A DNA stretch of 64,000 nucleotides from Daucus carota subsp. sativus (lineage: Eukaryota > Streptophyta > Magnoliopsida > Apiales > Apiaceae): contig NC_030386.2 of assembly GCF_001625215.2 (NCBI RefSeq), forward strand, positions 37,699,296 through 37,763,295. Reading direction: 5' to 3'. A program made the translations under genes and the position numbers. Positions 20,840 through 64,000 of this stretch are shown piece after piece. How positions within the stretch are numbered: the first letter of the stretch is position 1; each line of letters starts with the position of its first letter. The notes beneath the pieces are model-generated. The model was given only the letters and a program-made list of their open reading frames with translations. It did no database searches and was not told the origin of the DNA.

Positions 20840-20849
20840 TTCATGTACT

Positions 20850-32901: not shown

Positions 32902-37636
<4,735 letters not shown>

Positions 37637-40145
37637 TCACCGATGTCTCCACGAATCCATACATCCACGGTGCGGTGACCATCTAAACGGCACAGTTTGA
37701 TTAGCTAAAAATCTTTTCCAGTCATGAATAACACTAGTTAAATCAGTGACCTTAGCACTGATACTTCTACAACAATTAGCATGAACCGTGGACACAACTT
37801 TAACATCTCTACTATCTTGACAAAACCCACTGAAGTAAAGAGTGTCCAAGAATCTAGCCCTGATCCCTAACCTCCGAAATAAACCTTGGCGCATCAGATT
37901 CACCAACACGTCTTGTTCTTTCAGACCCTTGGATTGGTTTTTTTGGGCGTACCAGGAATCGAAGAGTGCAATGGTTTTGTTGTTTGAGTTGATCATGTAG
38001 AAGCCTGTGTTGATGGGTTGTCTGCGTTCGGACCATGGGTGGCCGATGAAGCTGTCGACGCTGATTTGGATGTCGATGCTTTGGTTTTGTATGAGGTTTG
38101 GGAATGGATTTCTTAGCCATAATACGTCTGTGTCCTGCGCAGATCATCAGAATAAATGTCAACAATGGACATGTTAAAAATCGACAGGACTCTGAACTCG
38201 TTCAATTTATAACGGGTGCGGAATTTTGATCGATTCTTATTTCTAGACCCTATGCATATATAACAATCAAAATAATCTAAAGATATATTTTTTCAGTCTC
38301 AACAATTTCTTTACACTTTTCATTTTAAATAACACATCCGCTTCTTTACATTTCAAACTTACACAAAAAAGAGTTAACAGGTCCCATCATTTCTCTAATT
38401 TTCATTCATTTTCACATTACCCCACTATCTTCTTTTTGTCTAACTCATTCGATAGAAAATGTGAAAGACGAAGAAGTAAAATTTAGTGTATAAATATATA
38501 CTAGATAAATTTTTATTTTTCGATGACTGACACTAACACTAGACAAACCCTTCTTTCTCGGTGACATAGTCATGTTTGCAAAGAGTTGTGTTGATAGCTA
38601 AATTTGAGCATTAGTCATTAGACAACAATGAGATGGAATTAAAAGTATAGATGAAATTTCAACAATGAGATGGATGTAAAAGTTTAAATTAAATTTAATA
38701 ATTTTGGTTTCATAATTTAAAATTTATTTATAATAACTAAATGAAAAATGGAATTTGGCTGAGCCACGCAGAAGTACAACTTCAACATTGTACATTGCCC
38801 ACCCTCTTCTTAGCCTGCCAACTTTGGCCACCCTCTCCTTAACCACTTCTTCTTAATTGAGGTGGAGCTTAGAGTACCTTTCCCTAGAATCTCTTAGTGG
38901 AAATGGAGGTTGAACCTCTTTCTAAATTATACTCTCAAATATATATATTCTGCTAGTAATTTTCTATTCATTAACTGTTTCCTACAATTATCAAAAATAA
39001 TTCTAACCCATGCACCAAATTAAAATTGTTCCGCTATTCTTAATTTTACCTCATATTCTTTTTTATTAATTTTCTTAAGATTTTTCTTTTCAAATAAATT
39101 CCATTCCAATAACACATAAAAGTCATTTCATATACAAACATTCTTTAATTTATTCCAAAAATTTATTTTAACTTCCTTCCGATTATTATTTAGAGAAAAG
39201 TCAGTTCTAATAATACATAAAAATTTGTCATATTCAGACTCTCAATATCACAGGTCAACCGAATGCCGTTTAAAATTCACAAAGGCTACGTAATCCACAG
39301 TCTAAAATAATCTACGTATCTGCCCACCCTATTCCATTCTACAATTCTAGAAGTATAATTTTCAAGAGCTGCCTTGTTCAACAATAATATCTTTATTTGG
39401 GTTCCTTTCTATTAGAGATTTATTCACAAGTAATTTTCCAACTATTTTTACACATTTCTTCAAAAACAATATCTTTACGGGTATTTTCACATTGTTTACT
39501 ACAATAAGCTAGCATGATTCTATAGGTTTATTCTAATATTTATAAGTTTTTAATTAATTTTTTCATAAAGTTTTTTATTAACTTAATTATAATAATATTA
39601 TATAAATCTTAATAATAATATTAATTTTAATAACTGGACTTTACAGATTAAAAATTAAAAAATATTTTAAGGTATGTTGACTAAATTAATTTAACTTAAT
39701 TATTAAAACAAATTTCAAAATAAAGAGATCTTAACTGTGCCAAAAGTACAACCCGGAATCCATGGCAACGAGAGCTTCGCATTATCGATCAAATAAAAAT
39801 CTAGCAAACCCTAGTTAAAAAATAATCTCGGAAAGATAAATACCGAAAGAAACGTAACGTACCGTGAATATGAAGTTATATCCATGTTTAAGAACATTAG
39901 TAAGAAACAGCGTTCTTCTCCACATCATGTTGATGAAATCTTCGCTCATGTATAGCTTCTCCCCCACAAAATCCACGCCGTCCGTTTTGAGCTTGTAGCA
40001 ATGCAACCGTAGATATTTACACCGATCATACGAGGTTTGATCCGCCGCCACGATTAAGAGATGATCGACTAGGTTTCTTGTGTTTTCGCCTAGCCAAAAT
40101 CCATCGAGAAATATGTCGAGCATGGGCTTGTCTCCTTCTACGTAT

Positions 40146-40444
40146 TGAGAAATACAATCTGCAATGTATTTGTACTAGGAGAAGAACAAAGTTTACTCTG
40201 AAACCACCACTTTATTATTATGAAAGACGATTACAATATAAAGGAAAAGAGATATATGATATCCCATGAAAGTAGGAAAGAAATAAACTAGAGCCAAAGA
40301 TAAGCCTAAATGAACGTAAGATTTATTCTCTTAATGATTCTGCAGATTCTCCAGCCATGCACCAGCGATTGTGTCACCTTGCCATATCCAGCAGCATCCA
40401 TGATTCTGGGGAATTATACCGAGTTTAGATTAATAAACCCAACA
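40146..40444 (-). repeat. 3' LTR of the copia element
   Basis: 299 bp, TGAGAAATAC...AACCCAACA as written on the plus strand. By eye it shows no difference from the LTR at 44719-45017. Confidence 0.93.
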
Positions 40445-40468
40445 AACTCCCCTTTAATCTAAACTCGT

Positions 40469-43400
40469 CTAAATGCACTTTACCACGCCAAGTAAGTTTC
40501 TCATGATTTCGAATTTTACAGCTGCAAGGGCTTTTGTGAGTAGGTCCGCACGCTGTTCCTCAGATCGTACATGTTTTACAGTGATTTCTCCGTTCTCTAC
40601 ACACTCACGTATGAAGTGATACCGAATGTCTATATGCTTGCTTCTCCCATGAAACACCGGATTTTTGGCCAAGTCAATCGCAGACTTGTTATCAATGAAG
40701 AGAGTGACTGGGCCAATGTCATACTCGGTAATCTGAGCTAATAATTTCCTTAACCAAACAGCTTGACAAGCTGCAGCTGTGGCTGCCATGAACTCAGCTT
40801 CGCATGAAGAAAGTGCGACACATTTTTGTTTCTGGGATGTCCAGGTTATCAAACTCTTGTTAAGGTAGAACACCATGCCTCCGGTACTCTTCCTGTCCTC
40901 TATATTGCCAGCCAAATCGCTGTCGGAATATCCAATCAGCACTTCATTGTCACTGTCCTGTGAGTATACCAGTCCGAAGTCAATCGTTCCCTTTACGTAC
41001 CTGAGTATGCGTTTTACAGCACCTTGATGCAACTGTGTGGGTCTGTCCATGAATCTGCTTAGAATGCCCACAGAATACGCCAGATCAGGTCTGGTGTGCA
41101 CCAAGTATCTCAAACCTCCTATCATACTCTTGTATGCTGTAGGGTCTACTGCTATTCCTTCTTCATCTTTGTTAATGACTTCTTTGGGGTGCATCGGAAT
41201 CTTTGCTGAATTACACTGCAGCATACCAGCTTTATTGAGGATTTTCTTCGCGTACCCTGACTGTTTTAGCTGGATATAGCCATTTCTTTGCATGACTTCA
41301 ATGCCTAGATAGTACGTTAGCTCCCCCAAATCACTCATGTCGAACCTGTGTCCCATCTTCCTCTTGAACTCCTCAATTTCCTTTATGCTTGAACCTGTCA
41401 CCAAGATGTCGTCGACATATACGCCGACTATAAGTACACCCTCTCCTGTTTTCTTTGTGTACACAGCTTGCTCGTATGCACACCTGACAAAACCCAATTC
41501 TTCTAAGCATTTATTCAGTTTGGAGTACCAGGCCCTTGGAGCTTGACGAAGACCGTACAGTGCTTTTATGAGCTTATAAACTAGATGTTCCTTCCCATGC
41601 TTAACAAATCCTTCAGGCTGTCTGACGTAGACTTCTTCCTTAATTTCTCCGTTCAGAAAAGCCGTCTTCACGTCCAGATGGTGCACCTTCCATTGTTCTT
41701 TTGCTGCAATTGCGAGTAACAATCGTATGGTCTCAATTCGTGTGACTGGAGCGAAAACTTCATCATAATCTACGCCTTGCTTCTGAACATATCCCTTGGC
41801 AACGATCCTGGCCTTGTACTTCACAATGTTCCCGTTTGCATCTCGTTTGATTTTGTAGATCCACTTCAAGTCAATGGGTTTCCTGTCTCGAGGTAGTTCT
41901 GTCAGAACCCAAGTTCCGTTTCTCTCTACTGCATCCATTTCTATCTCCATTGCCTTTGTCCATTCACTTTCTTTCACTGCTTGTGTGTAGTTTGCTGGTT
42001 CATCTACGCCCATGAGGAAAAGTTCTTCATCTTCCAACTCGAACGGCACAGTTTCATTATAGACATCACTCAAGTCCCTGTACCTTCGAGATTGTTCTGC
42101 AGAGCTTGTTGAGTTTGTAGTTGGCGTTGATGTCGAAGCTTGTCTGGCCAAAGTCTGAGAACTCTGTGTGTGTGCTTCACTTCCAGAGAATCTACTCGTC
42201 GAACTATGGCTTACAAAGTTACCTGAGCCACCGTCAGCGTTTGAGTGCCTCGGTACAGGGTCTGGTGTCGACTCTTCATTCAAACTCGATGCATCATTTT
42301 CATTGATCTCGGTTGCTTCATCCAAACCACCTGTAAATACAGTGAAGGTACCGGCTGGTGACTGTGTTTCTTCCATTTCTTTAACCCAATTCCAAGCTCT
42401 TCTTTCTTCAAACTCTACATCTCGGCTCACAGAAATTGTCTTAGTCACAGGGTCATACAGTCTGAAAGCTTTCGTACCCGATTCTTTCCCAAGGTAGACA
42501 ACTGGTTTGCTCCTGCTGTCTAGTTTTTTCAAATTTACACCGGGCAGTTTCATGTGGGCAACACAGCCAAAGACACGGAGATGATCAACATGTGGTTTCT
42601 TTCCCGACCAGGCTTCGTATGGCGTAATTCCAGTTAGTGCACGTGTGGGTAGTCTATTGATCAAGTAAGTGGAGTGACGCACGGCCTCTCCCCAAAAATG
42701 ATTTGGCAAGTTCATCTCCTTCAGTAGGCTTCGTGACATCTCAAGTAGTGTTCTATTACGTCGCTCAACCACGCCGTTCTGCTGAGGCGAATAGGGTGCA
42801 GAGAAGTGTCTAACAATTCCAGTTTCCTTGCAATACTTCGAAAACTCTTTTGAAGTGAATTCTCCACCGTTGTCTGTTCTGAAAGTCATGATTTTATTCC
42901 TTTCAGGAGTGTTCTCAACCAACACACGAAAATTTTTGAAAGCCTCAAATGCATCACTTTTGTTCTTCAACAAATAGGTCCACATAACACGACTATAATC
43001 ATCAATCAAGACAAGTATGTATTTATTACCTCCTGGAGTACATGGTGTGATCGGTCCGCACAGGTCACCGTGGATTAGTTCAAGCGGTTTCTTTGCTGAA
43101 AAGCTCGATTTTTGAGGGAATGATTTTCTGACTTGCTTTGACATCAAACATCCAGTGCAAACTTCATGTTGTTGATCTATCTTTGGCATTCCACAGACCA
43201 TATTTGTCGAGGACATGAGCTTCATCGCCTTGAAATTCACATGGCCTAGGCGAGAGTGCCACAGCCAACTCTCATTCTCATCTCTCGACAGCAAGCACTT
43301 CGTCTCGCCGCTGTAGATAATGATTTTATACAATCTGTTCGGAGACCGTTTGACTTTCATGAACAAAGCACCCTGTTCTTCATGAACCCAGAGATACTCT

Positions 43401-44737
43401 CCCTTGATAGATATTCTATATCCATTCTCTGAGAGTTGTCCAAGACTAATTATATTACTTCTAAGTGAGGGAATATAATATACCTCAGTCAGTGTCCTGT
43501 TTTCTCCATTCTTGCACCTCAATGTGATTGATCCCTTGCCTCTTATTTGAACCATCGAGCCATCACCGAATTTTACCTGACCTGTTATCCCTGTGTCAAG
43601 TTTATCAAATTTCGAGTACTGGCCAGTCATGTGGTTGCTTGCACCATTGTCCAAGTACCACAAATTTGATTCCATTTGTTCGTTTTCTCCTTGACCCAAC
43701 TTCGGTTTTACTCGTTCCTCGTTGATCACCGTACCATTCTTTTCCCTTTCAACCAAAAGTAAGGCCGGTTCATCGTCAGGTATCTGGGCAAAGTGAGCCT
43801 CATCAGTGTCTTCCCTTTCTCGTCTTGATTTTTTGCACTCCACGGCATAGTGACCGTAAGCGTTACAGTTGAAACATCGCACTTTAGTTTTATCTCGTCC
43901 TCCTCGTATGTACCCTTTTGCCCTGTTCCTTGCATGCGATGTCTCGGCGTTTCCTTTGACTGAACGTTTCATCCATTCCTCTTTTGTAAGCAATAGCTTG
44001 CTCTCTTCTTTTTCTCTTTCGACCCACTCCTCCCTGGTGAGAAGTAACTTTCCCTCCTTTGTCTCAGTTTGTCCCTTGATTCTTTCTTCATGAGCCTTCA
44101 GTGATCCCACCGTTTCTTCCACAGTCATTTTCTCGATATTTCCAAACTGTTCTATAGTGGAGGCGATTTGTAAAAATTTCGAAGGGGCTGCTCTTAAGAT
44201 CTTTTTGACGACATAGCTTTCTGCAACAGTTTCTCCCAGTGAGCGTATGTTGGTCACCAATCCGTTCAATTTCATGGTGAAGTCGTCTATTGAGTCTGTG
44301 TCCTGCATAGTCATAGACTCAAACTCTGCCTTGAGGGTTTGTATTTTTGCCGTCTTGGCTCTATCAGCACCTTGACACAGTGTTTTGATAGCCTCCCACG
44401 CTCCCTTGGCTGATTCCTTGTCTGCAATCGAGAGGAGTACGTCCTCCGGAATAGCCTGGTATATTGCCGCCAACGCGACCTTGTCTTTCTTCTCATCAAC
44501 CTCCGTTGCCTTAGGATCCTTTGGTGATATAGCCTCCCAAACACTGTGGGCCTGCATATACACCTTCATCTTCATAGCCCAAGCCGTATAATTTGCTCGA
44601 GTCAACATGGGGTAGTTTAACTGGATCCTTCCTTCGTTGTTCTTGTCTGTCTCCATCTGTAATGCTCTAGGCATGTACTTGGGCATCAACTCGTGACCAA
44701 GCTCTGATACCAGATTATTGAGAAATACAATCTGCAA
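40469..44737 (-). CDS. Copia gag-pol polyprotein frame (element part)
   Basis: Single frame of up to 1422 codons; the likely start is one of the Met codons shortly after the primer-binding site. Parts in copia order: a UBN2-type gag region, a CCHC zinc knuckle, an aspartic protease, integrase, reverse transcriptase with the YVDD box, and RNase H. Integrase before reverse transcriptase separates copia from gypsy elements. It belongs to the retrotransposon, not to the host gene it interrupts. Confidence 0.95.
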   Translation of the reverse strand: MQIVFLNNLVSELGHELMPKYMPRALQMETDKNNEGRIQLNYPMLTRANYTAWAMKMKVYMQAHSVWEAISPKDPKATEVDEKKDKVALAAIYQAIPEDVLLSIADKESAKGAWEAIKTLCQGADRAKTAKIQTLKAEFESMTMQDTDSIDDFTMKLNGLVTNIRSLGETVAESYVVKKILRAAPSKFLQIASTIEQFGNIEKMTVEETVGSLKAHEERIKGQTETKEGKLLLTREEWVEREKEESKLLLTKEEWMKRSVKGNAETSHARNRAKGYIRGGRDKTKVRCFNCNAYGHYAVECKKSRREREDTDEAHFAQIPDDEPALLLVEREKNGTVINEERVKPKLGQGENEQMESNLWYLDNGASNHMTGQYSKFDKLDTGITGQVKFGDGSMVQIRGKGSITLRCKNGENRTLTEVYYIPSLRSNIISLGQLSENGYRISIKGEYLWVHEEQGALFMKVKRSPNRLYKIIIYSGETKCLLSRDENESWLWHSRLGHVNFKAMKLMSSTNMVCGMPKIDQQHEVCTGCLMSKQVRKSFPQKSSFSAKKPLELIHGDLCGPITPCTPGGNKYILVLIDDYSRVMWTYLLKNKSDAFEAFKNFRVLVENTPERNKIMTFRTDNGGEFTSKEFSKYCKETGIVRHFSAPYSPQQNGVVERRNRTLLEMSRSLLKEMNLPNHFWGEAVRHSTYLINRLPTRALTGITPYEAWSGKKPHVDHLRVFGCVAHMKLPGVNLKKLDSRSKPVVYLGKESGTKAFRLYDPVTKTISVSRDVEFEERRAWNWVKEMEETQSPAGTFTVFTGGLDEATEINENDASSLNEESTPDPVPRHSNADGGSGNFVSHSSTSRFSGSEAHTQSSQTLARQASTSTPTTNSTSSAEQSRRYRDLSDVYNETVPFELEDEELFLMGVDEPANYTQAVKESEWTKAMEIEMDAVERNGTWVLTELPRDRKPIDLKWIYKIKRDANGNIVKYKARIVAKGYVQKQGVDYDEVFAPVTRIETIRLLLAIAAKEQWKVHHLDVKTAFLNGEIKEEVYVRQPEGFVKHGKEHLVYKLIKALYGLRQAPRAWYSKLNKCLEELGFVRCAYEQAVYTKKTGEGVLIVGVYVDDILVTGSSIKEIEEFKRKMGHRFDMSDLGELTYYLGIEVMQRNGYIQLKQSGYAKKILNKAGMLQCNSAKIPMHPKEVINKDEEGIAVDPTAYKSMIGGLRYLVHTRPDLAYSVGILSRFMDRPTQLHQGAVKRILRYVKGTIDFGLVYSQDSDNEVLIGYSDSDLAGNIEDRKSTGGMVFYLNKSLITWTSQKQKCVALSSCEAEFMAATAAACQAVWLRKLLAQITEYDIGPVTLFIDNKSAIDLAKNPVFHGRSKHIDIRYHFIRECVENGEITVKHVRSEEQRADLLTKALAAVKFEIMRNLLGVVKCI

Positions 44738-45017
44738 TGTATTTGTACTAGGAGAAGAACAAAGTTTACTCTGAAACCACCACTTTATTATTATGAAAGA
44801 CGATTACAATATAAAGGAAAAGAGATATATGATATCCCATGAAAGTAGGAAAGAAATAAACTAGAGCCAAAGATAAGCCTAAATGAACGTAAGATTTATT
44901 CTCTTAATGATTCTGCAGATTCTCCAGCCATGCACCAGCGATTGTGTCACCTTGCCATATCCAGCAGCATCCATGATTCTGGGGAATTATACCGAGTTTA
45001 GATTAATAAACCCAACA
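44719..45017 (-). repeat. 5' LTR of the copia element
   Basis: 299 bp, matching the LTR at 40146-40444. It adjoins the tRNA-Met-type primer-binding site and so is the upstream LTR of the minus-strand element. Confidence 0.93.
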
Positions 45018-45433
45018 CTACGTAGGCTTTGTTCACCATGGCTATAATCACCGTCTTGTTTTGTGTTGACGTCTCCGCTAGAGCTTCCTCTAGTTCATCT
45101 TTCTCATATGGCTTCATATTGAACTGTAATAACATGTAGAAACACACGGTAAGTTAATGTGTTAGAATATAATATGATTCTGGTATCAGAGCTCTCGGGT
45201 TTGACTTCCTGATATAGATTAAGGAGAGAAGGTAGAGTTTGAGTGCTTACGGTTGCCGCATGGGATTTGCTACTAGATGCAAGGAATTGAGGTTTTTGAA
45301 AAGGTGTAGGCAAGATCAAGTAGTTGACGTTGGCTTCATTGCAAACGAATACGTAGAGGAAACCAAGAAAAAGAAGAGATGCGACGCTAAAATTCACGAT
45401 CTGATGGCTCTTTTGAGACTGAGCAAGATCCAT

Positions 45434-46011
45434 AGATATTCTGTTAGGAAGAATGATCTTCTGCTTCGCTCTTATTACTATGTTGCGATTTTTCTACTTG
45501 CGGGGAGGAGGGCTTAAGAAAATTGGCTAAAAGTCAGTAGTTTTGTTTTAATTATACACGACTTGTTTACATGTCGGTACGTTTTGTTAGCAGTTTATTC
45601 CTTAACTTCGAATTCTATTTGTATTTCACAATCTATTTTTCATCTTGGACTCGTAAATATTTTGATATTTTGCAAATAATATTGTACAAAATTATTTTGT
45701 ATTGAGATCAAGTTTTGATTTTAATTATTATTGGCGGCCGGTGCATTACATACAGATTTTTTATATTAAATTATTAATTCATAAATATGTTTAAAATGTT
45801 ATTGATAGACATTGTAATCTGCATTCATTTAAATTTTATATTCGCATCAAGGATGAGACCCGTAATGAATAAAATGCTTGTCATACAAGGCCCTTCTATA
45901 TATGCTCTTGTAATTACTATTACTTGTATAAAACACACGATTCAAGTAATATTTGTTTAATTTAATGAGACTTAAGTAAGGAGTATTTGTTTAAGTAGAA
46001 TAGGGACACGT
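45434..46011. other. Upstream region of glycosyltransferase copy A
   Basis: Promoter side of the minus-strand gene. The same sequence stands at 52911-53488 for copy B, and a diverged form at 62723-63560 for copy C. AT-rich; no TATA box could be chosen with confidence. Confidence 0.45.
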
Positions 46012-48042
46012 ATGATGGTTGGTTTCAGTGTTCGCAGTTGGTGCCTTTTTTTCAAAGCAACACGCAGTGAAACTAGTACAATGAAGAGAATTCTAAACAG
46101 ATATGAGAGGTGTTCGGGTCAAGCTATTAATTATGGAAAATCGAGTATCATTTTCAGTCCAAACACGAGTACGGAAGACAGAACTTGGATGTGTACTAGT
46201 TTGGAGGTGGAGGAAGTAGATAAGCCTGGCAAGTACTTAGGAATGCCTATGTTTGTAGGGAAAAGGAAACGGGCCGTATTTGGTTTTTTGGCTGAGAAGG
46301 TTGATCATAAACTACAGGGGTGGGCAAATAAGGAGTTATCAAAGGAAGGAAAGCTTACTTTATTGAAGTCAGCTGCTCAAACAATACCGAACTTCTGGAT
46401 GTCCTTATTTCTGATTCCGCATAGTATTTGTGATGACATTGAAAAATCGATGAATGGGTTTTGGTGGGGTAAAAGCTCATCTGGCAGGGGCATTCGGTGG
46501 TTTTCATGGGAGAACCTAAGTATATCAAAGATGGCTGGGGGTCTTGGGGTTAAGAATTTAAACAAATTTAATGTCTCAATGCTGGCGAAACAAGGTTGGA
46601 GACTCCTTAATAATTCTAACCCTCTGGTGTCTGCAATTATGAAGGCCCGATACTACCCTAAAACTGATTTTTTGAATGCTGAGATTGGTGGAAGCCCCAG
46701 TTATGTTTGGCGCAGTATCTTGACAGCCAAGGATGTTTTAAAAGCAAATTGTCGTAGAAGGATTGGAGATGGAGCTTCTACATATGTATGGAAGGTTCCT
46801 TGGCTTCCTGATCAAGATGATGGTTGTGTCTCGACCGTTATGCCAGTACAGCTTCGTGAAACAAAAGTGCAGAATTTAATGGACATGGAGGGACGAAATT
46901 GGGATGTCGAGGTTCTTCGGGATATATTTAATGACAGAGATATTGAGTTGATAAATCGAATTCCTATCCCTGTTACTCAGCGTGAAGACTCCTGGTTCTG
47001 GCTAAGAGATGAGGACGGTAAATTTACAGTTCGTAGTTGCTATAGATGGTTGCAGGGAGAACATGATGCTGCTCACTCAAATTTCTGGAGGAAACTATGG
47101 TCATTGCGGATGCCTGGAAAGGTTGCTAATTTTGTTTGGAGAGTCTGTAAAGGGTGCTTACCAACAGCTACAGCGCTAATAACGAAAAAGGTCAATATAA
47201 ATGCTAGATGCCCATGGTGTCATATTGACAATGAAACGGAGATGCATGTGTTGTTTCAGTGTGATTTTGCAAAGACAGTTTGGCATATGTCCGGGCTTCA
47301 AGTGATAAACACGTTCATGCTTGATGAAGCGGTGTTTGACGTTCTGAGACGTGTGTTTACTGATATGTCAAGGGACCAGTGTATCTGGTTTTGCTTGTTA
47401 TGTTGGAGTATATGGAATCGAAGAAACAAATGGGTCTGGGACAAAGCAAATGGATCAGCCTTCGGGGTTAAAGCAGCTGCATTGCATCTACTTCAAGACT
47501 GGAGAAAAGCACAGAAATCGCAAGAGAAGCATCAATCTGCTAGGAACCAAATTGCGGATAAAAAATGGACCAAGCCGCCTGATGATTGGATTAAAATCAA
47601 TGTTGACGCAACTGGGGCTCAGAATGGGTATATTGGTTTTGGATGTGTGATTCGGAATACTCAGGGGCAGTTCATTGGAGCGAGATGTGGTCGTATTAGG
47701 GGTAATTGGAGTGCAAAGGAGGCTGAAGCGTTAAGTTTAAAGGAAGCTATCATATGGATCAAGCATCTGCAGCTGGACTGTTGCATTTTCGAAACTGATT
47801 CTCAGAGTTTAGCTTATGCTTGCTATGGTGAGGATGGTTGTGCTTACTTCAACACTATTGTGGGTGATTGTAAGTTTGTGTTAAAGCACTTTAATCATGT
47901 GCTAGTTAAATTTGTTTTTAGGTCTGCGAATTGTGTGGCTCACGAGCTAGCTCGAACCGCACTTTCTATGTCTGGCCTCGGAGAGTGGCATGTCACTCCT
48001 CCTGATTTCTTAAATCATGTACTTGATTCTGATTTATATTGA
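46012..48042 (+). CDS. LINE ORF2 C-terminal fragment (RT end, zf-RVT, RNase H), 676 codons
   Basis: The first roughly 10 codons (46012-46040) lie in host DNA; LINE sequence follows. Order: the C-terminal reverse transcriptase/thumb region (YERCSGQAINYGKSSIIFSP, KYLGMPMFVGK), then the plant-LINE middle (GWANKELSKEGKLTLLKSAA, SKMAGGLGVKNL). Next comes the zf-RVT region (FWRKLWSLRMPGKVANFVWR, CPWCH...E.HVLFQC). Last is an RNase H domain (INVDATGAQNGYIGFGCVIR, AKEAEALSLKEA, FETDSQSL). The polymerase active-site half and the endonuclease are absent, so it cannot move by itself. The frame has no internal stop for 676 codons, suggesting recent insertion. It need not be expressed. Confidence 0.93.
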   Translation: MMVGFSVRSWCLFFKATRSETSTMKRILNRYERCSGQAINYGKSSIIFSPNTSTEDRTWMCTSLEVEEVDKPGKYLGMPMFVGKRKRAVFGFLAEKVDHKLQGWANKELSKEGKLTLLKSAAQTIPNFWMSLFLIPHSICDDIEKSMNGFWWGKSSSGRGIRWFSWENLSISKMAGGLGVKNLNKFNVSMLAKQGWRLLNNSNPLVSAIMKARYYPKTDFLNAEIGGSPSYVWRSILTAKDVLKANCRRRIGDGASTYVWKVPWLPDQDDGCVSTVMPVQLRETKVQNLMDMEGRNWDVEVLRDIFNDRDIELINRIPIPVTQREDSWFWLRDEDGKFTVRSCYRWLQGEHDAAHSNFWRKLWSLRMPGKVANFVWRVCKGCLPTATALITKKVNINARCPWCHIDNETEMHVLFQCDFAKTVWHMSGLQVINTFMLDEAVFDVLRRVFTDMSRDQCIWFCLLCWSIWNRRNKWVWDKANGSAFGVKAAALHLLQDWRKAQKSQEKHQSARNQIADKKWTKPPDDWIKINVDATGAQNGYIGFGCVIRNTQGQFIGARCGRIRGNWSAKEAEALSLKEAIIWIKHLQLDCCIFETDSQSLAYACYGEDGCAYFNTIVGDCKFVLKHFNHVLVKFVFRSANCVAHELARTALSMSGLGEWHVTPPDFLNHVLDSDLY

Positions 48043-48071
48043 GTAATGCAAGTACTTATGTTTCAAAAAAA
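46041..48071 (+). mobile_element. 5'-truncated L1-type LINE, copy in unit A
   Basis: Compared with the matching site beside copy C (about 63575-63590), the extra DNA starts at about 46041 and ends in a short A-run at 48071. It holds only the C-terminal half of a plant L1 ORF2. Loss of the 5' half is usual for LINE insertions that stop early in reverse transcription. The same insertion is at 53518-55548 in unit B. Confidence 0.9.
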
Positions 48072-48333
48072 TATAAACCGTACTTCTCACGGCAACTTAC
48101 ATGTTCTAGTCAAACTACTAGAGATGCAGGATGCTAGGTAGACCGTCTAATCATAAATAACTGATAAATTAAATGCTTATTATTGATCTTAAAGTTATTT
48201 AAAGGTTTATAACAGTATTTTTTAATAATAAAAGTCAACCAATTATATAAATATCACAGCTAGTTAAGAACATATTAATAACATATTCAAGGAGGAAAAT
48301 ACTTAAATGTAAAACACTCGCAATAAGATAATG

Positions 48334-48590
48334 TGGGTGTTTGGCAACCCATTTTAAACCGGACTTTTCGGTTTATAAATTAGAAGCATTTATTCGTACC
48401 GTTTGTATAAAAAGTCAAGAAGCACTTATAAAAATCTAGGAATGCTAGTTTTTGTTTCAGGACTTCTACTTATTTCACTTATAAATCTTATCTTGTTTCT
48501 AACTTCTACTTCACTTATTTATTTTAAGCAATAAACACTTATTTATTTTAAGTAATAAACATTTATTTTAAATTCAACCAAACAGCCTCA
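48334..48590. mobile_element. MITE-like element in unit A
   Basis: Ends GGGTGTTTGGCAACCC and CAACCAAACAGCCT form short imperfect inverted repeats, and the interior repeats CACTTATTTATTTTAAG-type blocks. A copy stands in unit B at about 55811-56067. A relative with GGGTGTTTGGCGATAGC lies in intron 2 of copy C (about 60174). Confidence 0.5.
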
Positions 48591-48682
48591 ATATTCCGCT
48601 AAATAATACAGTACCATCGTGAATGGTAAGGATGCATATTTATATATAAATTAAACTGTATAGCATTTTCTTTTCGTATGAC

Positions 48683-48684
<2 letters not shown>

Positions 48685-48744
<60 letters not shown>
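48685..48744. repeat. (TA)n microsatellite at the end of unit A
   Basis: About 30 uninterrupted TA units. The corresponding tract in unit B (56163-56239) is longer and leads into a different neighbour. This is the point where units A and B part company. Confidence 0.95.
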
Positions 48745-48746
<2 letters not shown>

Positions 48747-48778
48747 CTTGGAAAGAAACGTACGACCGTGAATATGAA
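48742..48778. other. 37-bp junction filler matching copy C
   Basis: ATAATCTTGGAAAGAAACGT... up to TATGAA equals 61912-61948, the exon 2/intron 2 border of glycosyltransferase copy C. It differs from the matching place in copies A and B, which have extra bases and GTAC where copy C has GAC. It separates the (TA)n tract from the first base of unit B. Confidence 0.9.
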
Positions 48779-49993
48779 TAAGACCAAAATAAATGACTCT
48801 TTTTTGGATGCTATTGCATGTAGACAGTTTTGCAATTTGGAACCGACTAAACCTTCAGTGCTGCCCAGATTATTTGTCTAGTTTTGCTAATGTTATGCAA
48901 GAATAACATCGACTCTAACTCATGTCGAGAATATCCGAAAACAAATACTCAATTATAAGATTATAAATTAAATTAGTAAAAAAAAACAATACTTATTCCT
49001 AGGTGTTTTCTTTGGTTTCTTGAAATTTTCTAAAAATTATTGCTTGTCGGTAAGAATGTGAAGAATATGTAAGAAGATATTCTATCCGTCCTGTTTATTT
49101 TCCAAAAGTTTGTGATTGCAAATTTAGAAAATAAATTAGATTTGATATTTTTATCTTTTTTTATTGTATGTTATAGCAATAACTGACGTGGAATATATTA
49201 ATCATTTTCTTGTTGTGGATCACTCGATGAATGATGGGATGATGATGTTAAGATGAAGTGTTCTTTGTGGGTTATGTGATGAAAGGCCCATTTCAAATTA
49301 TTGATTGACCCACATATATCTATATGTGAGTGGACTAATGTAAGAGATTCAAGCCCATGTCCAGTAAACAGAATTGTATAAGGTTCGATCCGACTTATAA
49401 GTATAGTTTAGATTAAACTATTTATTATTAGATTTAAAGGTTGTTTATTCCTAATAAATAATGAATAACAGTAATAAATAGTTCATCTTAGGAAATATTA
49501 TTCATAAGGGAAATTTATTTTGTAAAATTCATCACTTTTACTTAAAGAAATTTATCTCACTTGCAATATATTTTTGTCAAAGAACTAGGAAAGTCTCATG
49601 TATTATTCAGAGAAAAGGATAGTCTCATGTATTATTCTCCAGAAATAAACTCTTATTTCTGAAAAACAAGAGTAGTCAAACAATCATTTAGTCTCATTTT
49701 TTTTAATTTACCAATACTTTTAATTGTATCAGAATTAACATGAGAAAATAAAAAATATAAATATAGAACATAAATACGCTTAATTCTAAACTCAGCGAAA
49801 CAATACAAGAAAAAGAACTCCTGATAGCGGCTATTGTATTCTGATACAATTCATCATACGAGAAAGTATCTCGTGACAAAACAAAAATTTAAAGAATTCG
49901 TCCGTACATTGGCCTAGACAAAACAAAATAAATACTCCATTTCTTAAACAAAAAAAAAAAAAAATTCATTTCAGGCTTTTCTACTTGTATAAT

Positions 49994-52910
49994 TCACCGA
50001 TGTCTCCACGAATCCATACATCCACGGTGCGGTGACCATCTAAACGGCACAGTTTGATTAGCTAAAAATCTTTTCCAGTCATGAATAACACTAGTTAAAT
50101 CAGTGACCTTAGCACTGATACTTCTACAACAATTAGCATGAACCGTGGACACAACTTTAACATCTCTACTATCTTGACAAAACCCACTGAAGTAAAGAGT
50201 GTCCAAGAATCTAGCCCTGATCCCTAACCTCCGAAATAAACCTTGGCGCATCAGATTCACCAACACGTCTTGTTCTTTCAGACCCTTGGATTGGTTTTTT
50301 TGGGCGTACCAGGAATCGAAGAGTGCAATGGTTTTGTTGTTTGAGTTGATCATGTAGAAGCCTGTGTTGATGGGTTGTCTGCGTTCGGACCATGGGTGGC
50401 CGATGAAGCTGTCGACGCTGATTTGGATGTCGATGCTTTGGTTTTGTATGAGGTTTGGGAATGGATTTCTTAGCCATAATACGTCTGTGTCCTGCGCAGA
50501 TCATCAGAATAAATGTCAACAATGGACATGTTAAAAATCGACAGGACTCTGAACTCGTTCAATTTATAACGGGTGCGGAATTTTGATCGATTCTTATTTC
50601 TAGACCCTATGCATATATAACAATCAAAATAATCTAAAGATATATTTTTTCAGTCTCAACAATTTCTTTACACTTTTCATTTTAAATAACACATCCGCTT
50701 CTTTACATTTCAAACTTACACAAAAAAGAGTTAACAGGTCCCATCATTTCTCTAATTTTCATTCATTTTCACATTACCCCACTATCTTCTTTTTGTCTAA
50801 CTCATTCGATAGAAAATGTGAAAGACGAAGAAGTAAAATTTAGTGTATAAATATATACTAGATAAATTTTTATTTTTCGATGACTGACACTAACACTAGA
50901 CAAACCCTTCTTTCTCGGTGACATAGTCATGTTTGCAAAGAGTTGTGTTGATAGCTAAATTTGAGCATTAGTCATTAGACAACAATGAGATGGAATTAAA
51001 AGTATAGATGAAATTTCAACAATGAGATGGATGTAAAAGTTTAAATTAAATTTAATAATTTTGGTTTCATAATTTAAAATTTATTTATAATAACTAAATG
51101 AAAAATGGAATTTGGCTGAGCCACGCAGAAGTACAACTTCAACATTGTACATTGCCCACCCTCTTCTTAGCCTGCCAACTTTGGCCACCCTCTCCTTAAC
51201 CACTTCTTCTTAATTGAGGTGGAGCTTAGAGTACCTTTCCCTAGAATCTCTTAGTGGAAATGGAGGTTGAACCTCTTTCTAAATTATACTCTCAAATATA
51301 TATATTCTGCTAGTAATTTTCTATTCATTAACTGTTTCCTACAATTATCAAAAATAATTCTAACCCATGCACCAAATTAAAATTGTTCCGCTATTCTTAA
51401 TTTTACCTCATATTCTTTTTTATTAATTTTCTTAAGATTTTTCTTTTCAAATAAATTCCATTCCAATAACACATAAAAGTCATTTCATATACAAACATTC
51501 TTTAATTTATTCCAAAAATTTATTTTAACTTCCTTCCGATTATTATTTAGAGAAAAGTCAGTTCTAATAATACATAAAAATTTGTCATATTCAGACTCTC
51601 AATATCACAGGTCAACCGAATGCCGTTTAAAATTCACAAAGGCTACGTAATCCACAGTCTAAAATAATCTACGTATCTGCCCACCCTATTCCATTCTACA
51701 ATTCTAGAAGTATAATTTTCAAGAGCTGCCTTGTTCAACAATAATATCTTTATTTGGGTTCCTTTCTATTAGAGATTTATTCACAAGTAATTTTCCAACT
51801 ATTTTTACACATTTCTTCAAAAACAATATCTTTACGGGTATTTTCACATTGTTTACTACAATAAGCTAGCATGATTCTATAGGTTTATTCTAATATTTAT
51901 AAGTTTTTAATTAATTTTTTCATAAAGTTTTTTATTAACTTAATTATAATAATATTATATAAATCTTAATAATAATATTAATTTTAATAACTGGACTTTA
52001 CAGATTAAAAATTAAAAAATATTTTAAGGTATGTTGACTAAATTAATTTAACTTAATTATTAAAACAAATTTCAAAATAAAGAGATCTTAACTGTGCCAA
52101 AAGTACAACCCGGAATCCATGGCAACGAGAGCTTCGCATTATCGATCAAATAAAAATCTAGCAAACCCTAGTTAAAAAATAATCTCGGAAAGATAAATAC
52201 CGAAAGAAACGTAACGTACCGTGAATATGAAGTTATATCCATGTTTAAGAACATTAGTAAGAAACAGCGTTCTTCTCCACATCATGTTGATGAAATCTTC
52301 GCTCATGTATAGCTTCTCCCCCACAAAATCCACGCCGTCCGTTTTGAGCTTGTAGCAATGCAACCGTAGATATTTACACCGATCATACGAGGTTTGATCC
52401 GCCGCCACGATTAAGAGATGATCGACTAGGTTTCTTGTGTTTTCGCCTAGCCAAAATCCATCGAGAAATATGTCGAGCATGGGCTTGTCTCCTTCTACGT
52501 AGGCTTTGTTCACCATGGCTATAATCACCGTCTTGTTTTGTGTTGACGTCTCCGCTAGAGCTTCCTCTAGTTCATCTTTCTCATATGGCTTCATATTGAA
52601 CTGTAATAACATGTAGAAACACACGGTAAGTTAATGTGTTAGAATATAATATGATTCTGGTATCAGAGCTCTCGGGTTTGACTTCCTGATATAGATTAAG
52701 GAGAGAAGGTAGAGTTTGAGTGCTTACGGTTGCCGCATGGGATTTGCTACTAGATGCAAGGAATTGAGGTTTTTGAAAAGGTGTAGGCAAGATCAAGTAG
52801 TTGACGTTGGCTTCATTGCAAACGAATACGTAGAGGAAACCAAGAAAAAGAAGAGATGCGACGCTAAAATTCACGATCTGATGGCTCTTTTGAGACTGAG
52901 CAAGATCCAT
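49994..52910 (-). CDS. GT77-type nucleotide-sugar glycosyltransferase, copy B (intact), 353 aa
   Basis: Three exons on the minus strand: 52910-52728, 52600-52220 and 50491-49994; 1062 nt. A type II Golgi topology is expected. A short N-terminal tail is followed by one membrane anchor (VNFSVASLLFLGFLYVFVC, about 13-31) and a lumenal stem. The catalytic domain (DUF271/PF03407-type, as in Arabidopsis At4g15970 and At1g14590 relatives) includes TVIIAMVNKAYVEGDKPML, LIVAADQTSYDRC and the metal/nucleotide-binding DxD motif DTDVLWLRNPF right after the exon 2/3 join. NTGFYMINSN, DTLYFSGFCQDSRD and HANCC follow. Family members act on cell-wall glycans such as extensins or pectins; the acceptor of this one is not known. 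Donor after exon 2 is GTACGT. Confidence 0.93.
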
Positions 52911-53488
52911 AGATATTCTGTTAGGAAGAATGATCTTCTGCTTCGCTCTTATTACTATGTTGCGATTTTTCTACTTGCGGGGAGGAGGGCTTAAGAAAAT
53001 TGGCTAAAAGTCAGTAGTTTTGTTTTAATTATACACGACTTGTTTACATGTCGGTACGTTTTGTTAGCAGTTTATTCCTTAACTTCGAATTCTATTTGTA
53101 TTTCACAATCTATTTTTCATCTTGGACTCGTAAATATTTTGATATTTTGCAAATAATATTGTACAAAATTATTTTGTATTGAGATCAAGTTTTGATTTTA
53201 ATTATTATTGGCGGCCGGTGCATTACATACAGATTTTTTATATTAAATTATTAATTCATAAATATGTTTAAAATGTTATTGATAGACATTGTAATCTGCA
53301 TTCATTTAAATTTTATATTCGCATCAAGGATGAGACCCGTAATGAATAAAATGCTTGTCATACAAGGCCCTTCTATATATGCTCTTGTAATTACTATTAC
53401 TTGTATAAAACACACGATTCAAGTAATATTTGTTTAATTTAATGAGACTTAAGTAAGGAGTATTTGTTTAAGTAGAATAGGGACACGT
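52911..53488. other. Upstream region of glycosyltransferase copy B
   Basis: Same sequence as 45434-46011. AT-rich promoter side of the minus-strand gene. No separate feature. Confidence 0.45.
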
Positions 53489-55519
53489 ATGATGGTTGGT
53501 TTCAGTGTTCGCAGTTGGTGCCTTTTTTTCAAAGCAACACGCAGTGAAACTAGTACAATGAAGAGAATTCTAAACAGATATGAGAGGTGTTCGGGTCAAG
53601 CTATTAATTATGGAAAATCGAGTATCATTTTCAGTCCAAACACGAGTACGGAAGACAGAACTTGGATGTGTACTAGTTTGGAGGTGGAGGAAGTAGATAA
53701 GCCTGGCAAGTACTTAGGAATGCCTATGTTTGTAGGGAAAAGGAAACGGGCCGTATTTGGTTTTTTGGCTGAGAAGGTTGATCATAAACTACAGGGGTGG
53801 GCAAATAAGGAGTTATCAAAGGAAGGAAAGCTTACTTTATTGAAGTCAGCTGCTCAAACAATACCGAACTTCTGGATGTCCTTATTTCTGATTCCGCATA
53901 GTATTTGTGATGACATTGAAAAATCGATGAATGGGTTTTGGTGGGGTAAAAGCTCATCTGGCAGGGGCATTCGGTGGTTTTCATGGGAGAACCTAAGTAT
54001 ATCAAAGATGGCTGGGGGTCTTGGGGTTAAGAATTTAAACAAATTTAATGTCTCAATGCTGGCGAAACAAGGTTGGAGACTCCTTAATAATTCTAACCCT
54101 CTGGTGTCTGCAATTATGAAGGCCCGATACTACCCTAAAACTGATTTTTTGAATGCTGAGATTGGTGGAAGCCCCAGTTATGTTTGGCGCAGTATCTTGA
54201 CAGCCAAGGATGTTTTAAAAGCAAATTGTCGTAGAAGGATTGGAGATGGAGCTTCTACATATGTATGGAAGGTTCCTTGGCTTCCTGATCAAGATGATGG
54301 TTGTGTCTCGACCGTTATGCCAGTACAGCTTCGTGAAACAAAAGTGCAGAATTTAATGGACATGGAGGGACGAAATTGGGATGTCGAGGTTCTTCGGGAT
54401 ATATTTAATGACAGAGATATTGAGTTGATAAATCGAATTCCTATCCCTGTTACTCAGCGTGAAGACTCCTGGTTCTGGCTAAGAGATGAGGACGGTAAAT
54501 TTACAGTTCGTAGTTGCTATAGATGGTTGCAGGGAGAACATGATGCTGCTCACTCAAATTTCTGGAGGAAACTATGGTCATTGCGGATGCCTGGAAAGGT
54601 TGCTAATTTTGTTTGGAGAGTCTGTAAAGGGTGCTTACCAACAGCTACAGCGCTAATAACGAAAAAGGTCAATATAAATGCTAGATGCCCATGGTGTCAT
54701 ATTGACAATGAAACGGAGATGCATGTGTTGTTTCAGTGTGATTTTGCAAAGACAGTTTGGCATATGTCCGGGCTTCAAGTGATAAACACGTTCATGCTTG
54801 ATGAAGCGGTGTTTGACGTTCTGAGACGTGTGTTTACTGATATGTCAAGGGACCAGTGTATCTGGTTTTGCTTGTTATGTTGGAGTATATGGAATCGAAG
54901 AAACAAATGGGTCTGGGACAAAGCAAATGGATCAGCCTTCGGGGTTAAAGCAGCTGCATTGCATCTACTTCAAGACTGGAGAAAAGCACAGAAATCGCAA
55001 GAGAAGCATCAATCTGCTAGGAACCAAATTGCGGATAAAAAATGGACCAAGCCGCCTGATGATTGGATTAAAATCAATGTTGACGCAACTGGGGCTCAGA
55101 ATGGGTATATTGGTTTTGGATGTGTGATTCGGAATACTCAGGGGCAGTTCATTGGAGCGAGATGTGGTCGTATTAGGGGTAATTGGAGTGCAAAGGAGGC
55201 TGAAGCGTTAAGTTTAAAGGAAGCTATCATATGGATCAAGCATCTGCAGCTGGACTGTTGCATTTTCGAAACTGATTCTCAGAGTTTAGCTTATGCTTGC
55301 TATGGTGAGGATGGTTGTGCTTACTTCAACACTATTGTGGGTGATTGTAAGTTTGTGTTAAAGCACTTTAATCATGTGCTAGTTAAATTTGTTTTTAGGT
55401 CTGCGAATTGTGTGGCTCACGAGCTAGCTCGAACCGCACTTTCTATGTCTGGCCTCGGAGAGTGGCATGTCACTCCTCCTGATTTCTTAAATCATGTACT
55501 TGATTCTGATTTATATTGA
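53489..55519 (+). CDS. LINE ORF2 C-terminal fragment, copy in unit B, 676 codons
   Basis: Protein-identical to the frame at 46012-48042, with the same host-derived first codons. It arose by the large duplication, not by a second insertion, since both flanks are the same. It has the reverse-transcriptase C terminus, zf-RVT and RNase H regions only. Confidence 0.93.
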   Translation: MMVGFSVRSWCLFFKATRSETSTMKRILNRYERCSGQAINYGKSSIIFSPNTSTEDRTWMCTSLEVEEVDKPGKYLGMPMFVGKRKRAVFGFLAEKVDHKLQGWANKELSKEGKLTLLKSAAQTIPNFWMSLFLIPHSICDDIEKSMNGFWWGKSSSGRGIRWFSWENLSISKMAGGLGVKNLNKFNVSMLAKQGWRLLNNSNPLVSAIMKARYYPKTDFLNAEIGGSPSYVWRSILTAKDVLKANCRRRIGDGASTYVWKVPWLPDQDDGCVSTVMPVQLRETKVQNLMDMEGRNWDVEVLRDIFNDRDIELINRIPIPVTQREDSWFWLRDEDGKFTVRSCYRWLQGEHDAAHSNFWRKLWSLRMPGKVANFVWRVCKGCLPTATALITKKVNINARCPWCHIDNETEMHVLFQCDFAKTVWHMSGLQVINTFMLDEAVFDVLRRVFTDMSRDQCIWFCLLCWSIWNRRNKWVWDKANGSAFGVKAAALHLLQDWRKAQKSQEKHQSARNQIADKKWTKPPDDWIKINVDATGAQNGYIGFGCVIRNTQGQFIGARCGRIRGNWSAKEAEALSLKEAIIWIKHLQLDCCIFETDSQSLAYACYGEDGCAYFNTIVGDCKFVLKHFNHVLVKFVFRSANCVAHELARTALSMSGLGEWHVTPPDFLNHVLDSDLY

Positions 55520-56159
55520 GTAATGCAAGTACTTATGTTTCAAAAAAATATAAACCGTACTTCTCACGGCAACTTACATGTTCTAGTCAAACTACTAGAG
55601 ATGCAGGATGCTAGGTAGACCGTCTAATCATAAATAACTGATAAATTAAATGCTTATTATTGATCTTAAAGTTATTTAAAGGTTTATAACAGTATTTTTT
55701 AATAATAAAAGTCAACCAATTATATAAATATCACAGCTAGTTAAGAACATATTAATAACATATTCAAGGAGGAAAATACTTAAATGTAAAACACTCGCAA
55801 TAAGATAATGTGGGTGTTTGGCAACCCATTTTAAACCGGACTTTTCGGTTTATAAATTAGAAGCATTTATTCGTACCGTTTGTATAAAAAGTCAAGAAGC
55901 ACTTATAAAAATCTAGGAATGCTAGTTTTTGTTTCAGGACTTCTACTTATTTCACTTATAAATCTTATCTTGTTTCTAACTTCTACTTCACTTATTTATT
56001 TTAAGCAATAAACACTTATTTATTTTAAGTAATAAACATTTATTTTAAATTCAACCAAACAGCCTCAATATTCCGCTAAATAATACAGTACCATCGTGAA
56101 TGGTAAGGATGCATATTTATATATAAATTAAACTGTATAGCATTTTCTTTTCGTATGAC

Positions 56160-56162
<3 letters not shown>

Positions 56163-56239
<77 letters not shown>
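56163..56239. repeat. (TA)n microsatellite, left flank of a 704-bp element
   Basis: Nearly 40 TA units. It closes unit B and adjoins the element at 56240-56943. Confidence 0.95.
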
Positions 56240-56246
<7 letters not shown>

Positions 56247-56941
56247 TTTTACTCCAATAGAAACCTGCTTAGTCTAGAAACTAAAAACCAAGCTGAAATA
56301 TCACTAAATCCTAAAACAGATACCACTAAATTCTTAAACAACCACATCTCCATCTCTATCTTCACCAACCCCACCTCCATCTTCACCAACCCCACCTCCA
56401 CATCCGCCATTACCACCACCTCCGTCGTCACCTCTTCCATAACCACCACCACCTCTATGCCACCCGCCTCCTCCATCTCCACCTCCATTATTTCTCTAAC
56501 AACACAATCTCCACCTCCATCTTCACCAACCCCATCTTGGTCGCTGCTTCAACCTCCTTCAGCCCTGTTCATACTTCTTTCTCCACCTCGGTTCAACTTC
56601 AAAACGCGGCGGAGCCGCCACTATTCCGGCAACGCTCCAACCCCCTACTTCAAGTCACCCACACCTTCGCTACAATCATCCTTCCTCCATCTCTACCTTC
56701 ACCTCCACCATCTCCACCACCGTCACCACCATCTGAATCGAAAACGTGAACAGATCTGGAGATTTGAGCAGTTTTTCGAACATATATGGAGATTCTGAGC
56801 TGTTTCTGCAAATTTTCACTAATTCTTGCAACACATATCACTAAATCCTAAAGAGAATATCACTAAATTGTACTGCGAATATCACTAACTTGTATTGGTT
56901 TCTAGTTTTTATTTTAAAAGTGGTTTCTATTTGATCATGAG

Positions 56942-56943
<2 letters not shown>
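56240..56943. mobile_element. TA-microsatellite-flanked non-autonomous element (Micron-like)
   Basis: A 704-bp block sits between two (TA)n tracts. Its ends are inversely related: left CCAATAGAAACC, right GGTTTCTATTTGATC. Each end is followed inward by ACTAGAAACCA-like and TCACTAAAT-like blocks. The middle is CT-rich with a repeated CCACCTCCATCTTCACCAA. Frames on both strands are low-complexity by-products. Elements bordered by TA repeats (such as rice Micron) are known; membership here is inference. Confidence 0.5.

Positions 56944-56999
<56 letters not shown>
56944..56999. repeat. (TA)n microsatellite, right flank
   Basis: About 28 TA units following the right end of the 56240-56943 element. 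Confidence 0.95.
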
Positions 57000-57000
<1 letters not shown>

Positions 57001-57018
57001 CCTAAATTGCTCCATTAC

Positions 57019-57300
57019 TCAAAGAGAATCATAAGAAAGAGCCTCCAACAAACACGTAGGAGGAGACATGAATAAATTATGGGAATTTACTAAACACTGG
57101 ATTCCAGCGACTTCATGTGCTACCCAGTTAGCATTCTTCCGAACAAAAACAATCGAACCTCTACATAAATTGCTTAGCATCTGTTTACAAGTCTCGATTA
57201 TTTCTTCAACCTCTAAAAAATTCACCTTCTGGCCTGCAATTGCATCAACGCTGAGTTTTGAATCGGCCTCAATTACCACAACCCGTAGTCCTCATCGTGC
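57019..57300 (-). mobile_element. LINE remnant (RNase H C terminus)
   Basis: A minus-strand frame reads VIEADSKLSVDAIAG, then IVFVRKNANWVAHEVAG and a short tail, matching the last third of the RNase H domain of plant LINEs. Compare ETDSQSLAYACY...FVFRSANCVAHELA in the fragment at 46012-48042. It is a different LINE lineage, heavily 5'-truncated, and starts next to the (TA)n tract. Confidence 0.75.
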
Positions 57301-57748
57301 CGGTGATTAATATACGACTAACTATACGTTTATTGTTTACACACATTTCGATTTCGAAGTTTTTATAAAATATAATTTATAATATTTTTTTAATTTTTTT
57401 TGAAATAAAAATTTAAACATCAAATTTTTATTAAAGAAATTAAAATTATTTGCTTGTGGGTAAGAATTCGAAGAATATGTAAGAAGATTATAATTACAAA
57501 TTTAGAAAATAAATTTAGGTCGATTTTTTTTATTGCATGTGAATATGTGATAGCAAAAACTGATATGGAAAATATTATTCATATTCTTGTTGTGGATTAT
57601 GATGGTATGATGATGTTAAGATGAAGTGTTCTTTGTGGGTTACGTCAAGAAAGGCCCATTTAAAATTATTGATTCACCCACATATATCTACGTGGGTGTG
57701 GACTAATGGAAGAGATTCAAGTCCATGTCGAGTCCAGAATGATAAGGT
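57301..57748. other. Spacer downstream of copy C (diverged duplicate of 36640 onwards)
   Basis: From about 57445 the sequence follows the GDH-upstream spacer of unit A (AAGAATATGTAAGAAG, GATGATGTTAAGATGAAG, AAGGCCCATTT blocks) with many differences and indels. It marks the left edge of the older copy C block. Confidence 0.6.
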
Positions 57749-57975
57749 GGGGCCGTTTGGGCAAGCTTAAAAGAAGTGACTTCTGGCTTAAACTAGAGAA
57801 GTGGAGCAGAAGTGAGAAGTAAATAAGTTAATAAAGTGTTTGTAAAAGAAGCAGAAGCTGTGAGACAAAAGCTAGCATTCTCAGCTTTTTAAAAGTACTT
57901 CTACTTCTTTACACAAACGGGTCAAAAGAAGTAGAAGCCAGAAGCAGCTTCTGCTTCCGTTAAACAAACAGGCAC
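57749..57975. mobile_element. MITE in the copy C spacer, empty site known
   Basis: Ends GGGGCCGTTTGGGCAAGC and TAAACAAACAGGCAC are imperfect inverted repeats, and the interior is rich in AGAAGTGACTTCTGC-type inverted blocks. AAGGT flanks it on both sides (57744-57748, 57976-57980). Units A and B have a single AAGGT at the same place (GTATAAGGTTCGATCC), which confirms insertion. 227 bp. Confidence 0.75.
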
Positions 57976-58758
57976 AAGGTTTCGATCCGACTTATAAGTA
58001 TAGTTTAGATTAAACTAGATTTAAGTTTGATTATTTCCTAATAAATAATGAAATAACAGTAATAAATAGTTTTATTTTGTAAAATTCATCACTTTTCTTA
58101 AAGGAAATTTATCTCACTTGCAGTACATTTTTGTCAAAGAATTAGAAAAGCGCTGAAAAATCTGGAATATAATTAAGAAAAATTAAAACAAAAACTGAAA
58201 CGAAGAGTTCGAATTAAATATTTTCAAGGATTTAAACAAACACCGTAAAAGTCAGAAAAATATTTTTTGGACAAATAACGAAGTCTAAAAATAAAGTATA
58301 TACATAGGAGTACTTTTTTATTTGAAAACTTTCAGGAAAATTGGTACATTTTGGTAATATTAATAATGGGCAGAAAGTACTCATACATCTTTTTATGTAA
58401 AAACAAGGTCGTAGTAAAAATTTCCCTAAACTATTAAATTAAATTTGGTATCAGAGACCTCTACTTAATCATCAAAATTTATCAACTTTTTACAAAAATC
58501 AGTTTTTAACATGATCACCTACCACTAACAGCAGGGTGGAGTCTGACCTCGCAAAAATTCGAATTATACAATTTTCACATAGACCTACTCCCAATATTTT
58601 TAATTGTATCAGAAATAACATGAGAAATAATAATATTAAAATATATACATAGACAATACAAGTATTCGTTGGTCCATGGGCGTAAACAAAACAAAATAAA
58701 TATTTCTTACAAAAAACGAAAAAAAACATTTTGAGGCTTTAATTTCTACCTGTATAAT
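57976..58758. other. Remainder of the copy C downstream spacer
   Basis: Continues the diverged match to unit A (TTCGATCCGACTTATAAG onwards), with added AT-rich stretches absent from unit A. No frame is recognised. Confidence 0.45.
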
Positions 58759-63560: not shown

Positions 63561-63785
63561 GTTAGTTTTCAGTGTTTGCGGTTAGTTGTATATAAACCGT
63601 ACTTCGTCCGTTTCGAATCAGATATTCATATTTCAAAAGTTACATATTTTTAAAAACTGAATTTTAAAAAAAAAAGTTGTATTAAATCATTAATAACATA
63701 ATATATGACATATGATTGAATGTTGATCTTGAAAATATAAATTAGAAATAATAGCCTTTTAACTCGTGCGAGCACGGGTGCACGG

Positions 63786-64000
63786 GCGGTTATATAGTTC
63801 GTAATTTATTATTTATAATTTAAATTTTAACTTGAATTAAATTAAATTATATTAACCAACGAATTATATTTTCTCACAAAAATTTAGCTTTTACAATTTA
63901 TTATCTATTTATAAATATTTTTCTGTTATTAATATGTGATAATTTATTATTCAATTAATTTTAAATCAAGTTTTTCTTATTTGGGAGTATATCTTCATTA
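63786..64000 (+). repeat. AT-rich dispersed repeat (Helitron-like), copy 2, cut by window edge
   Basis: The reverse complement of the repeat at 15140-15358. In that sense it ends in ACTATATAACCGCCCGTGCA and a CCCGTGCTCGCACGAG hairpin (63760-63790), like a Helitron 3' end with a changed terminus. It runs out of the window on the right. Confidence 0.55.

Follow-up and report, generated by a model that had tools for sequence, protein, structure and literature searches.

A 37-bp filler matching a nearby gene copy at the seam of a young tandem gene duplication

Templated insertions at repair and duplication junctions

Templated insertions have been described as a hallmark of polymerase-theta end joining (PMC12426944, PMC10923293), and in A. 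thaliana they have been reported at frequencies of up to ~35% (PMC12426944). Theta inserts are generally shorter than 25 bp (PMC12426944), and many of them match sequence within 100 bp of the break (PMC5217109). In plants, which are described as having no HELQ, most theta outcomes carry templated insertions, and these are very often patchworks (PMC8654963). Inserts in Arabidopsis are often derived from other molecules nearby, in that study T-DNA (PMC10923293). Plant filler DNA of 1-36 bp has been reported from a small number of junctions, and almost all of the junctions in that break-repair study fitted both copy-in and end-joining models (PMC3289645).

Tandem duplications made by polymerase-theta end joining have been described in worm mutants. 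In helq-1 animals they span ~100 bp to 10 kb and show microhomology, and a templated insert is occasionally present (PMC8654963); in brc-1/brd-1 animals they are mostly ~10-20 kb and are suppressed by loss of polq-1 (PMC7368036).

The seam described here, between two plant gene copies A and B, is a templated-insertion tandem duplication, a class that is neutral as to mechanism. A and B are tandem copies in direct orientation and meet at a single junction, where the insert has one identifiable template elsewhere, matched at 37 of 37 bases, with junction and donor as the 2 genome places listed. Among the papers listed in literature searches on templated insertions, filler DNA, FoSTeS/MMBIR and carrot, none named the junction in its title or abstract opening.

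The duplicated units and the filler between them

The window, by which we mean the whole 64,000-nucleotide stretch of contig C6 that was analysed, contains three copies (A, B and C) of a minus-strand gene belonging to the nucleotide-diphospho-sugar transferase family (Pfam PF03407). Two tandem units, at forward-strand positions 36420-48744 (unit A) and 48778-56221 (unit B), hold copies A and B, and copy C, at about 57.5-63.4 kb, is 76-92% alike in blocks. The duplicated unit is 7,444 bp long, and the two units are separated by no substitution; their only two differences, a Copia-type element of 4,875 bp and one base of a poly-A run near 37607, both add to the length of unit A. A substitution rate of 7e-9 per base and generation, applied to 0 substitutions in ~7.44 kb, gives a 95% bound of ~29,000 generations on the age of the duplication, gene conversion aside. 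Since the units carry no substitutions, the junction is young and unblurred.

The Copia-type LTR element occupies 40143-45017 on the minus strand, within exon 2 of gene copy A, and is characterized by identical 302-bp LTRs, a 1,444-codon open frame and a target duplication of 5 bp, identified by eye as CTACG at 40138-40142 and 45018-45022. By these features the element appears to be young, and gene copy A is predicted to be interrupted by it. Because the element sits in exon 2 of copy A and is absent from B, its insertion most simply post-dates the duplication. Each unit also holds a 688-codon open frame (45976-48042 and 53453-55519), of which the B copy matches zf-RVT and RVT_3 and is probably a LINE remnant. 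Elsewhere in the window, two perfect short tandem duplications with 78-bp and 67-bp units, 100% alike and apparently recent, were observed at 60211-60368 and 20706-20841.

Between the two units lies a filler of 37 bp (48742-48778, forward strand), which is identical at 37/37 bases and in the same orientation to 61912-61948 in copy C, as the initial annotation had claimed. A scan of the genome (441,086,747 bases in 11 contigs, both strands, at most 3 mismatches) listed the filler at 2 places, the junction and copy C, both exact, and the same pattern read backwards, used as a control, gave 0 matches genome-wide on both strands. As the match is listed at no third place, it is not due to chance. 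Copies A and B differ at the matching position by 16 extra bases and a few substitutions relative to C, in agreement with the annotation's remark that they do not match the filler, which is thus C-type. These comparisons identify copy C as the only known candidate donor and indicate that the filler was templated from it. A longer C-like block at the junction, which the annotation had named as grounds for rejecting its reading, was looked for and is absent: the sequence on either side of the 37 bp departs from C immediately.

The edges of the filler are partly ambiguous. Three bases (ATA) are common to the left edge and the TA tract that ends unit A, and 1 base (A) is common to the right edge and unit B; the unambiguous, donor-only insert is therefore the 33 bp at 48745-48777 (forward strand). 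Apart from the junction and the donor, no piece of this 33-bp core longer than 13 bp occurs in the window, and the 13-bp piece lies at the corresponding position of A and B. The left overlap is thus shorter than the TATAAT-like one that had been proposed. Among random site pairs from 36-63 kb, at least 3 shared bases occur in 6.4% and at least 1 shared base in 46.8%, and joins out of the TA tract share at least 3 bases in 9.7%. For this one event, then, the overlaps at the putative switches are 3 bp, which chance would give in 6-10% of cases, and 1 bp, which it would give in 47%. In addition, the donor's left flank resembles the tract at 6 of 15 bases (P 0.40). The junction microhomology, which had been cited in favour of replication template switching, is indistinguishable from chance; templating is evident here, and the use of microhomology is not.

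The donor site at 61912-61948 (forward strand, with gene C on the minus strand) would comprise 12 bp of the end of exon 2 and 25 bp of the start of intron 2. This division, with its putative splice site, fits the Pfam PF03407 matches, which cover profile 2-72 in exon 2 and end at window position 61937, followed by profile 72-208 in the next exon, and it agrees with the exon 2/intron 2 border proposed earlier. The donor now lies 13.1 kb from the junction, and the distance of ~13 kb given by the initial annotation is right for the sequence of today. In the unduplicated parent, however, arithmetic places the donor ~5.69 kb beyond the right breakpoint (56221 to 61912), with 13.1 kb between it and the left end of the unit. 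Even sampling of donors across the genome would yield one no more than 13.2 kb away, in either direction, ~6 times in 100,000 (arithmetic), and this rarity argues that the donor is local. That it sits in a related gene needs no special cause, because ~40% of 56222-64000 aligns to unit B (summed alignments). Adjoining copy C, at 61700-61800, we also observed ~98 bp of a dispersed repeat with at least 35 other copies, on nine contigs, among the matches listed.

In both copies the duplicated unit ends in a TA tract. The tract that ends unit A, and holds the left breakpoint of the junction, is 59 bp long (48686-48744), and its counterpart closing unit B, which marks the parental right breakpoint at 56221, is 77 bp (56163-56239). 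This difference in length places the left breakpoint inside the tract, unless tract length changed later. The second tract also opens a stretch of ~0.7 kb (56163-56999) that is bounded by TA tracts (56163-56239 and 56944-56999); relatives of this stretch, one of them inverted, lie beyond the right edge of the window, ~17-22 kb from it, and the stretch is possibly an element that targets TA microsatellites.

With both genes on the minus strand, the seam follows copy B and precedes copy A in the direction of transcription, and no fusion gene was seen at it; for these reasons it would most likely have no function.

Single-event and other explanations of the seam

We consider it very probable that the 7.4-kb tandem duplication and the filler arose together in a single repair event. 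Two routes belong to this class, polymerase-theta joining of a failed sister-chromatid repair and FoSTeS/MMBIR, and the sequence does not decide between them; with the microhomology indistinguishable from chance, nothing in the junction names an enzyme. We favour the theta route, with confidence that stands about even. It would have begun with a break or fork collapse, presumably at or near the long TA tract, and with repair from what may have been the sister chromatid. The copied end, failing to anneal, would have been joined by polymerase theta (TEBICHI in plants), probably after one end had primed briefly on copy C, 5.7 kb away, in a direction of synthesis that can only be conjectured; ~33-37 bp would have been copied before the end detached, to be joined to the unit's left edge. 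This route is reconstructed from the observed tandem units, the exact 37-bp copy and its uniqueness, the C-type donor and the overlaps of 3 bp and 1 bp. Theta is expected to prime on few bases and to copy nearby sequence; at the seam, 3 bases are shared on the left and the donor lies 5.7 kb away rather than within ~100 bp. The filler is a single block of 33-37 bp, and its donor lies 5.7 kb from the nearer breakpoint; these features count against theta, as they suit a distant template switch better.

FoSTeS/MMBIR was the mechanism proposed by the initial annotation. The part of that proposal that stands is template switching in the broad sense of a one-step templated junction; the specific attribution is not established, as theta end joining also makes tandem duplications with templated inserts. 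We regard FoSTeS/MMBIR itself as a serious candidate that falls short of an even chance. On this account, a fork would have stalled in the TA tract, and the nascent strand would have switched 5.7 kb ahead to copy C, copied ~33-37 bp and returned 13.1 kb to the start of the unit, so that two switches account for every part of the seam. A long TA tract is a plausible site of fork stalling, which counts in favour of this route, as do the location of the donor, kilobases away on this chromosome (5.7 kb from the parental right breakpoint), and the orientation that it shares with the filler. Human PLP1 rearrangements that have been ascribed to replication offer a precedent, one of their junctions carrying a 38-bp templated insertion (PMC6902434). 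Other observations weigh against it. The 3 and 1 shared bases are indistinguishable from those of random sites, the similarity to the left of the donor does not exceed chance, and there are no substitutions near the junction and no clustered mutations. In a human survey, which selects inverted copies with templates within 100 bp, 80% of MMBIR-type insert junctions had 2-12 bp of microhomology (PMC8421209); the left junction of our seam falls inside this range and the right junction below it. Furthermore, structural variants in human cells under replication stress have been traced mainly to polymerase theta (PMC11541566).

Three further readings are unlikely. In the first, a plain tandem duplication running from the unit start as far as 61948 in copy C would have preceded a separate deletion, which removed the sequence between the TA tract and a point no more than 37 bp from the new junction. 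The product would be identical, and each step would need just 1 or 3 shared bases. This sequence of events is nevertheless improbable: out of ~5.7 kb, the deletion must end within 37 bp of the first junction (<1%, arithmetic), and both events must fall inside the short time set by zero substitutions in 7.4 kb.

Still less probable is an assembly artefact, in which two haplotypes or contigs were wrongly placed in tandem and the filler arose as a gap-fill error. The presence of the Copia-type insertion in A and not in B is what two alleles might show, but alleles would be expected to differ by substitutions, and the 7.4 kb contain none. Errors of overlap depend on a long shared word, whereas these joins share 3 and 1 bases, and no N is present in the window or in 120 kb of flank. 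The carrot DH1 v3 assembly is reported as that of a doubled haploid, with PacBio, Nanopore and Hi-C data, comprising 440.7 Mb in nine chromosomes, the longest of 64.5 Mb, with a scaffold N50 of 51.1 Mb (PMC10581907). If the assembly analysed here is the same, its doubled-haploid origin and long reads argue further against mixed haplotypes (PMC10581907). Of 9 short Bet v 1-type gene pieces taken from the genome, 8 were compared with the PDB: three gave a major latex-like protein as best hit, three gave celery Api g 1 followed by carrot Dau c 1, and two gave Dau c 1 with Api g 1 next. Among the top alignments listed none was identical, so that these proteins fit carrot or a close relative.

It is also very unlikely that the donor was a fourth gene copy since lost, or an unseen C-like allele, instead of C itself. 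Our view is restricted to one individual, which leaves room for such a donor, but C matches the filler without mismatch and no other place is listed within 3 mismatches. No further gene copy was found in the 50 kb to the left or the 70 kb to the right of the window, where the BLAST hits were short and none fell on the scanned glycosyltransferase exons, and the family search listed only A, B and C on contig C6.

Finally, unequal crossing-over (NAHR), which needs long homology between the ends, was rejected: simple unequal crossing-over cannot make the filler, since the donor piece has no more than 3 bases in common with one joined end and 1 with the other, and on this point the initial annotation was correct.

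The seam among other tandem duplications

Tandem duplication is a main source of new plant genes, and the mechanism of their birth is usually blurred by later change. The A/B seam is intact, with breakpoints placed to the base, a known donor and no substitutions since. For this gene pair at least, it speaks for an origin by non-homologous repair or copying and against unequal crossing-over. Other tandem pairs were chosen by eye from UDP-glycosyltransferase and P450 family matches (at least 86 and at least 140), and two were read. One, on contig C9, is old, with 87% identity, and is of no use as a comparator. The other, a pair of P450 genes on contig C4, has a unit of ~31.6 kb with blocks of ~90-98% identity; its seam (C4:34554315-34554382) contains ~40-50 bp that match neither flank but are part of a dispersed repeat (40 other matches listed, one of them weak).

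The A/B seam is a clean example of the scars, already well known, that error-prone DNA repair or copying leaves; its chief value lies in its youth and its unique donor, and it makes a simple genome-wide test possible, in which templated fillers are counted at young tandem seams. From this one junction it might be proposed, as a speculation that we think more probably wrong than right by a wide measure, that in plants, with their lack of HELQ, young tandem gene duplications are routinely closed when sister-chromatid repair is aborted and theta samples gene copies in the vicinity; if so, the fillers at their seams would record which paralogue stood next to the break.

Among known systems, the seam resembles the theta tandem duplications of C. 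elegans (helq-1 and brc-1/brd-1; PMC8654963, PMC7368036) in being a kilobase tandem duplication with few-base joins, and the helq-1 class, as reported, also carries occasional templated inserts. It differs from them in that the insert is longer than usual and the donor lies 5.7 kb away, and theta is in our case a candidate enzyme. Like the complex duplications attributed to FoSTeS/MMBIR, as at PLP1 (PMC6902434), it holds at the duplication junction a short piece templated kilobases away on the chromosome that carries it; in contrast to the PLP1 type as reported, there is here no clear excess of microhomology or microhomeology, there are no extra mutations, and the insert is single. Similarly, the filler DNA of plant break-repair and T-DNA junctions (PMC3289645, PMC5217109, PMC10923293) is alike in its plant origin, in a size near the 1-36 bp recorded (PMC3289645) and in its use of a template from the neighbourhood, whereas those fillers come from induced breaks or T-DNA joins and the one described here lies in a natural gene duplication.
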